From Lachnospiraceae bacterium (GTDB lineage: Bacteria > Bacillota > Clostridia > TANB77 > CAG-508), in contig JAISHG010000101.1 of NCBI GenBank assembly GCA_031262685.1, positions 1-34,393 of the forward strand: a DNA stretch of 34,393 bases, written 5' to 3'. The notes below the pieces were generated by a model. That model was not told the DNA's origin. It worked only from the letters and a program-made list of their open reading frames with translations, and ran no database searches. This document shows, in pieces, positions 33,206 through 33,899 of this stretch; positions within the stretch are counted from its first letter, which is position 1; each line of letters begins with the position of its first letter. The position numbers were made by a program, and so were the translations under genes.

Positions 33206-33440
33206 AATGGACCTCCTTAGCCCAAAGCTGCATTTGCAGCAATAATTTTACAAACACAAAAGGCGAGCAATGGCTCAAGCAAGTTGGTGTTTGGTTTTTC
33301 AATATATAGAATCCAAAAGGACTACATAATATTGGTGTATTGTATTTTATTTGTCAATAGAACACACATTGTAAAATATTTTTCAAAAGCGGAGATATGC
33401 TAATATAGCGGTGAGCTATTAGCGAACTAGATACCCATAA
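33206..33440. other. Intergenic region upstream of the Nudix gene
   Basis: No gene is seen. It holds the Nudix ribosome site and a leader with small hairpins (GAGC-AATG-GCTC, 33265-33276; CAAACAC at 33251-33257 with GTGTTTG at 33291-33297). It also has a TTGACA on the minus strand (plus 33352-33357). Confidence 0.4.
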
Positions 33441-33467
33441 TTTACAAAAAATGTCGACCAAAACATA

Positions 33468-33496
33468 TTGACAAAATTATATTTCGGTATTATACT
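33468..33496 (+). promoter_or_regulatory. Promoter of the antisense RNA, cassette 2
   Basis: TTGACA (33468-33473) and TATACT (33491-33496), 17-base spacer, the same as in cassette 1. Upstream, TTTACAAAAAATGTCGAC (33441-33458) resembles the right flank of the same cassette. Confidence 0.85.
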
Positions 33497-33502
33497 GAAT
33501 AC

Positions 33503-33572
33503 ATATTTAAGTAATACTCATGTTGAGTTTTCACAATAAAAAAGACTAGGGGGGTTACCCTAGTCTTTTTCC
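33503..33572 (+). ncRNA. Putative antitoxin RNA of type I TA-like cassette 2
   Basis: A ~70-base transcript would run from the promoter to the terminator at 33539-33570. Its 5' part (33506-33534) repeats 33634-33663, the segment complementary to the convergent peptide's start codon and ribosome-site flank. Shared blocks are TTTAAGTAAT, TCAT, GAG and TTTCAC. These blocks differ from those of cassette 1, but each RNA matches its own partner. Confidence 0.65.
33539..33570. terminator. Shared bidirectional terminator, cassette 2
   Basis: AAAAAGACTAGGG (33539-33551) pairs perfectly with CCCTAGTCTTTTT (33558-33570). The stem core GACTAGGG is the same as in cassette 1. Confidence 0.92.
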
Positions 33573-33581
33573 GTAATAGCA

Positions 33582-33650
33582 CTAATTGCTGAATTCTTTT
33601 AATATGTACAAAACTAAAACTAATGCTACTATTTTTAAGTAATTTCTCAT
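33582..33650 (-). CDS. 22-residue hydrophobic peptide (putative type I toxin), cassette 2
   Basis: The ATG (plus 33648-33650) is preceded by GAAAGGAGGTG (plus 33661-33671), a perfect ribosome site with the same spacing as in cassette 1. The peptide begins MRNYLKIVAL and ends LYILKEFSN, TAG 12 bases before the terminator. One hydrophobic helix with basic N-terminus is predicted, long enough to span or insert in the membrane. It is the paralogue of the peptide at 14652-14720. I do not see the motifs of Fst, TxpA, BsrG or Ldr. It is located about 250 bases upstream of ftsA on the other strand. Confidence 0.75.
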   Translation of the reverse strand: MRNYLKIVALVLVLYILKEFSN

Positions 33651-33682
33651 ATCGAGATTTCACCTCCTTTCAAACAAAATTT

Positions 33683-33692
33683 GCCGAAAGGC
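33683..33692 (-). other. Conserved 5'-leader mini-hairpin of the peptide mRNA, cassette 2
   Basis: GCC-TTTC-GGC on the minus strand, as in cassette 1, in the predicted 5' untranslated region. Confidence 0.5.
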
Positions 33693-33698
33693 CTCTTT

Positions 33699-33727
33699 AT
33701 TATACATTTATTTACACGGTACATCTA
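33699..33727 (-). promoter_or_regulatory. Promoter of the 22-residue peptide gene, cassette 2
   Basis: On the minus strand TAGATG (plus 33722-33727), 17-base spacer, TATAAT (plus 33699-33704). Confidence 0.7.
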
Positions 33728-33899
33728 TAATTTTTACAAAAAAGTGTTCGACAAAATTCGTGAAAATTTTGGATTCGATAACATTGTTACAATTATATTA
33801 CAAACATGTTACGAAAATATGACAAAACTATTGACTTTTTTCATTCATTATAATATTCTAACAAATATAATAAACTAAATAGGAACTGGAGGAATAAAC

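Follow-up and report, generated by a model that had tools for sequence, protein, structure and literature searches.

Paired peptide and antisense RNA cassettes in an uncultured clostridium belong to a much-duplicated family of probable type I toxin–antitoxin loci with par-like regulation and copy-specific repeats

The window analysed here, a stretch of 34,393 nt that corresponds to one 34-kb contig, carries two homologous cassettes, cassette 1 at 14516–14828 and cassette 2 at 33440–33765, which align with 79% identity over 313 nt. Both have the same orientation, 18.9 kb lie between them, and a DNA search of the 1.15-Mb, 136-contig assembly found only these two full copies. The preliminary description had introduced cassette 2 as an unlinked homologous copy with all parts in the same order; the alignment and the aligned anatomy bear out a separate copy with conserved order, but "unlinked" is a loose word for two cassettes on a single contig. 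On the minus strand, each cassette contains a promoter with a good −10 box, a leader, a Shine–Dalgarno (SD) sequence, a 22-codon open reading frame (ORF), and an intrinsic terminator. From a strong promoter on the opposite strand (plus; TTGACA-17-TATACT), an RNA of ~70 nt would be transcribed convergently with the peptide gene; its 5′ part is an antisense repeat of the SD and start region of that gene. A single bidirectional terminator hairpin is predicted to serve both the peptide mRNA and the antisense RNA in either cassette.

In cassette 2, the antisense promoter (an 11/12 match) occupies 33468–33496 (+) and the predicted antitoxin RNA of ~70 nt spans 33503–33572 (+), its ends being placed from the promoter and terminator positions. 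Pairing analysis locates the antisense repeat (DRa-like) at 33506–33534 (+) and its target (DRb-like), which covers the SD edge, the ATG, and codons 2–6 of the peptide mRNA, at 33634–33663 (−). The terminator, recognised by sequence and fold, lies at 33540–33571 (hairpin of −18.8 kcal/mol), and the 22-aa peptide MRNYLKIVALVLVLYILKEFSN, supported by its ORF and by family searches, is encoded at 33585–33650 (−) with a stop codon at 33582–33584. Upstream of the gene follow a predicted 5′ leader stem-loop (GCCUUUCGGC...GAAAGG, 33663–33692, −) that can hide the SD, a promoter with TATAAT, a spacer of 17, and a weak −35 box TAGATG (33699–33727, −), and the motif TTTTGTCGAA (33747–33756, −). Cassette 1 has the same layout: an antisense promoter of the same sequence and score (14539–14567, +), a predicted antitoxin RNA of ~69 nt with inferred start and end (14574–14642, +), the DRa-like repeat (14580–14608, +), a terminator with a hairpin of −19.3 kcal/mol (14610–14642), the 22-aa peptide MKNYTKIVVLILVLYILKEFSN, identified in the same way (14655–14720, −; stop codon 14652–14654), the DRb-like target, again from the SD edge to codons 2–6 (14703–14733, −), a leader with a GCC-UUUC-GGC hairpin in whose predicted fold the SD is largely paired (P about 0.79; 14733–14761, −), a promoter match TAGACG-17-TATAAT (14768–14796, −), and TTTTGTCGAA (14815–14824, −). 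Both terminators have an A-run on one side and a T-run on the other. A short way upstream of the antisense promoter, both cassettes have a GTCGAC site (14522–14531 and 33452–33459), and for this reason both promoters may have a common regulator.

The cassettes adjoin a minC-like (13841–14440) and an ftsA-like gene (33900–34393), both connected with cell division, which could be due to chance. The scanned neighbours of related loci (see below) are mostly housekeeping genes as well, with two loci (L157 and L168) in surroundings that look prophage-like, and on these neighbourhoods we set aside plasmid addiction as a present function of the window copies. Two further elements of the surroundings were recorded. 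A dispersed palindromic element, GTAGGGGCGCATGATTGCGCCCTA, mostly intergenic and REP- or MITE-like, occurs at 71–104, 11582–11615, 14452–14476, 14947–15018, 28666–28699, and 32304–32337, and a similar sequence, GGGCGATTAAAATCGCCCCTACAT, comes after the cassette in a related locus (L025). Cassette 1 is also adjoined by an ORF of 2453 codons (15731–23092, +) built from some five repeats, each of roughly 498 residues, which looks like a repetitive surface protein.

A whole-cassette DNA search in the genus returned only the two copies of the window, and relatives had to be found with a peptide profile. Genomes of the host's bacterial family were searched, first 145 and later 390, as was a genome contig collection, in which the relatives sit in records titled 'uncultured Clostridiaceae bacterium'. 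A 14-row peptide profile matched 139 of the 390 family genomes at E up to 0.05, the weaker of these matches being uncertain. In an order-level sample, the 42 genomes matching at E up to 1e−4 all belong to the host's family, as do the only two matching genomes in a class-level sample of 391; the genomes sampled outside this family at both levels held no peptide relative. The same was true of viral contigs searched with the two-peptide alignment, and of phage and plasmid collections searched by tblastn with one 22-aa query, a weak test at such a length. No Pfam or NCBIfam model matched the peptide, and the PDB held no relative at E up to 10. By these searches, the peptide family appears to be unannotated, much duplicated, and found in one family of uncultured clostridia only.

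Altogether, 112 loci were gathered, and a simple script found a start codon, an SD, and a terminator in 93 of them. The peptides of these 93 loci are 18–26 aa long (mostly 21–22), with a consensus close to MKNIIKLIALILIYLILKEFDD, in which conserved lysines 6 and 18 flank an 11-residue hydrophobic core, and with an acidic end. Copy number reaches five or six in some genomes, for example G107 (contigs C2 and C4; loci L074, L012, L076, and L080), where close neighbours lie about 1 kb apart (170816 and 171754 on C2; 13324 and 14448 on C4); this spacing suggests tandem duplication followed by divergence of the repeats. Removal of near-identical loci left a non-redundant set of 65, on which the comparisons below are based.

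Across these 65 loci the regulatory elements recur. Promoters matching at least 10 of 12 positions were found on the antisense side in 54 loci and on the sense side in 46, compared with 8–9% in shuffled sequences, and the better −35 match of the antisense promoters (5.3/6 versus 4.4/6 for the sense promoters) would fit an excess of antitoxin. In the predicted folds of 58 of the 65 leaders, at least three of the five SD core bases are paired, and these SD-hiding leaders differ greatly in sequence (CCUUUC...GAAAGG, CCUC...GAGG, CUUCUUU...AAAGGAG). For the upstream helix (5′-UH) by which par_pAD1-type loci engage the 5′ terminus, the predicted folds varied: in some relatives, such as L130, the 5′ end pairs with codons 2–4, and in the window, cassette 1 forms a small 5′ hairpin only, with no such structure in cassette 2 apart from the SD stem. 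In six loci (L016, L017, L020, L021, L024, and L067), two hairpins separate the peptide gene from the antisense region, an arrangement that looks like one terminator per RNA. The terminator loops of both window cassettes lack the YUNR U-turn that accelerates pairing in par_pAD1; those of 17 of the 65 loci have it. This motif is not universal within the par family (PMC7472228).

We then consider how specifically each antisense RNA matches its own messenger. Between the two window cassettes, the repeats are the least conserved of the parts compared, with about 66% identity including gaps, against 88% for codons 6–22, 88% for the terminator, and 80% for the leader. Within cassette 1, the two repeats share 67% DNA identity with gaps, and their match is strong only when G–U pairs are counted. 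For the predicted transcripts with terminators left out, duplex energies were −31.9 (cassette 1) and −31.2 kcal/mol (cassette 2) for cognate pairs and −11.6 and −16.1 kcal/mol for crossed pairs; net of self-structure, the gain on cofolding was −19.7 and −20.0 kcal/mol for cognate and −4.0 and −1.8 kcal/mol for crossed pairs. None of 2000 shuffles of either antisense RNA equalled the observed cognate pairing.

The same specificity extends to the wider collection. With a fixed 100-nt stretch, rather than a mapped transcript, as the antisense side, the mean duplex energy between start and antisense regions was −28.1 for cognate and −15.6 for non-cognate combinations of the 65 loci, and permutation of partners gave a mean of −15.8 with a standard deviation of 0.44 (z = −27.8). 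By local alignment, a locus's own antisense repeat ranked first of 65 in 45 cases. Between-locus distances in the two repeats were correlated (r = 0.56; 0 of 2000 Mantel permutations as high), and the correlation persisted when divergence over the remainder of the gene was controlled (partial r = 0.53). Two loci pair poorly with their own partners (G097:C80 and G283:C52). The preliminary description had claimed that the antisense block at 33506–33534 matches 33634–33663 and not cassette 1, and that co-divergence explains how the copies avoid cross-talk, and it had proposed both a cognate versus non-cognate interaction prediction and the collection of more copies. The match is borne out by the energies above, and the 65 loci, apart from the few exceptions named, repeat it, so that cognate specificity is confirmed at the level of sequence. 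The expected absence of cross-talk holds for the window pair and for most multi-copy genomes; it fails for G283, where the repeats of two copies (G283:C6 and G283:C34) are identical and predicted to cross-react, and for some copies in G107 and G173, for which cross-reaction is likewise predicted.

Such a plan has precedents. Loci of the par type have convergent promoters, a bidirectional terminator, direct repeats through which the RNAs pair where toxin translation begins, and a leader stem-loop that hides the SD (PMC7472228), and each of these par_pAD1-type features has its counterpart in the cassettes, including the sharing of the terminator by both transcripts. As far as likeness can be judged from described features, par_pAD1 (fst, RNA I–RNA II) of Enterococcus faecalis and the chromosomal par_EF0409 follow the same regulatory plan with locus-specific repeats, and pAD1 RNA II gives no protection against EF0409 RNA I, presumably because the repeats differ (PMC7472228). 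Avoidance of cross-talk by means of repeats is thus a known principle, as it has been described for par, and is met here on many more copies. SprA1/SprA1AS and SprA2/SprA2AS of Staphylococcus aureus (PepA toxins) are likewise chromosomal par-type loci that combine a small membrane peptide with an antisense RNA (PMC7472228), but their peptide belongs to the Fst family, whose signature the cassette peptide lacks. CD2517.1-RCd8 of Clostridioides difficile and its relatives are also clostridial, with convergent toxin and antisense genes in several copies per genome; their toxins, however, have 34–53 aa and lysine-rich tails, and the passages of PMC6563280 on these loci mention no direct-repeat contact. 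With its 22 aa, the cassette peptide falls below the length of the type I toxins that the two reviews describe (PMC7472228, PMC6563280).

The match of the main regulatory features to par_pAD1 (PMC7472228) could be taken to mean that the toxin does belong to the Fst/Ldr family, though in a highly diverged form, and that the locus is one more par homologue. We regard this as unlikely, given the tests of the peptide itself: Pfam PF13955 (Fst_toxin) had no match among 51 members of the peptide family searched one by one at E up to 10, nor in 39 relatives; the P/D/S/T-XXX-G/C (PXXXG-type) motif occurs in none of 80 distinct peptides; tryptophan, which Fst/Ldr toxins have between the TM helix and a highly charged tail, occurs in one of the 80; there is no such tail; and, as noted, the PDB holds no relative. 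Among RNA families, the Rfam fstAT covariance model (RF01797) had no match in 20 genomes, the control genomes being likewise silent, and Rfam as a whole returned nothing for the cassettes at gathering thresholds; relaxing the cutoff to E up to 1 brought chance families only. As no test gave an Fst signature, we dropped membership in the Fst toxin family and say of the cassettes that they would work like par, with a regulatory plan that is known and a peptide that is, by all these comparisons, unrelated to that of par_pAD1 and unannotated.

Each cassette combines a small hydrophobic peptide with an antisense RNA predicted to be encoded opposite or beside it, a combination expected of type I systems, and we consider it quite probable that the cassettes are chromosomal type I toxin–antitoxin loci with par_pAD1-like regulation. 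Both RNAs would then be made, and the minus-strand RNA would encode a 22-residue hydrophobic peptide that most likely enters the inner membrane, stays bound there, and would be harmful when overmade. The leader of this messenger is predicted to fold so that the SD is hidden. The first contact with the antisense RNA would be made by the terminator hairpins, which should be fully complementary because both RNAs end in one DNA hairpin; in a second contact, supported by covariation, the 5′ repeat of the antisense RNA would pair with the SD, the AUG, and codons 2–6 and probably block translation. Since this second contact is copy-specific, each antitoxin would silence its own messenger. Against this reading count the lack of Fst signatures, the small size of the peptide, the missing U-turn, and the weak cognate repeats of a few relatives.

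A short hydrophobic core, conserved lysines, and an acidic end would also suit a regulated small membrane protein, such as a factor in development or a peptide that associates with a membrane enzyme, that is silenced by the antisense RNA until needed and is not a toxin; the mostly housekeeping neighbours and the developmental timing suggested by the Spo0A-like boxes discussed below point the same way. Double silencing by a hidden SD and an antisense RNA is, however, typical of toxin–antitoxin loci, as are a patchy presence (139/390 genomes) and numerous diverging paralogues, each with an antitoxin of its own, and we give this explanation a somewhat smaller chance still than a diverged Fst peptide.

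For the type I reading it matters that the repeats act as paired RNAs, and the direction of mismatches bears on this point. Transitions between cognate repeats keep a G–U pair in 59 cases and break it in 22 (p = 5e−5 versus equality), while the same count on non-cognate alignments gave 723:631 (Fisher p = 8e−4 for the difference). A preference for G–U over A–C mismatches tells RNA pairing apart from mere copying, and we treat the test as supportive rather than conclusive because base composition differs somewhat between the two sides and the loci share descent. The repeats could instead have no RNA–RNA function and be either remnants of gene conversion or local duplication or two sites at which a protein binds; within a cassette they are indeed alike, as after any recent duplication. 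This reading is very improbable, however, in view of the G–U bias, of a segment that covers the start codon even in relatives without that sequence, and of the promoters, terminator, and leader fold conserved around the repeats. Together with the permutation z-score and the partial correlation, these ratios support the earlier suggestion that the antisense segment and its target co-vary as a functional RNA pair.

The toxin promoters have one feature that par_pAD1 does not share, namely Spo0A-like boxes. The motif TTTTGTCGAA contains a perfect Spo0A-box (0A-box) core, TGTCGAA (PMC3485338), and stands upstream of both peptide promoters at the same distance, about −62 from the predicted start. 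The 10-mer occurs six times in the whole assembly, a count that is not unusual, as the reversed pattern occurs eight times; its placement is unusual, in that only the sites of cassettes 1 and 2 look non-coding. The other four appear to lie within ORFs, one of them the beta-lactamase-like ORF of the window and three by inspection. LexA was considered as a binder of this motif on the strength of CGAAC, a LexA half-site, and was set aside, as the window copies have no adjoining palindromic partner.

A 0A-like core precedes the −10 box in 18 of the 65 loci, compared with 1.1 ± 1.1 in shuffled sequences, related loci not being independent in this count. Of the pattern hits, 44 of 46 share one orientation (overlapping patterns counted separately), and they fall mostly at about −47, −62, and −73. 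The 1.15-Mb assembly (G000) itself has five matches to the Spo0A_C domain, on contigs C82, C62, and C123 (three clustered). Spo0A may raise transcription of the toxin through the TGTCGAA box, and such an input could tip the balance between toxin and antitoxin at entry into stationary phase or sporulation. We tentatively put forward, as a possibility that falls short of an even chance, that these loci form a type I family confined to one lineage and present there in many copies, in which Spo0A activates the toxin promoters; the toxin would then be released when cells enter stationary phase or sporulate, and not through plasmid loss or a drop in antitoxin. We treat the link to Spo0A as a lead and as the most interesting open point of this analysis.

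These loci comprise dozens of paralogous toxin–antitoxin-like pairs in which the repeat that appears to confer specificity changes much faster than the rest of the cassette. They form a natural series well suited to studying how the specificity of an antisense RNA can evolve with no unprotected stage in between. If the Spo0A reading is true, they would also offer a testable answer to the question, raised for chromosomal par-type systems (PMC7472228), of when their toxins are released.
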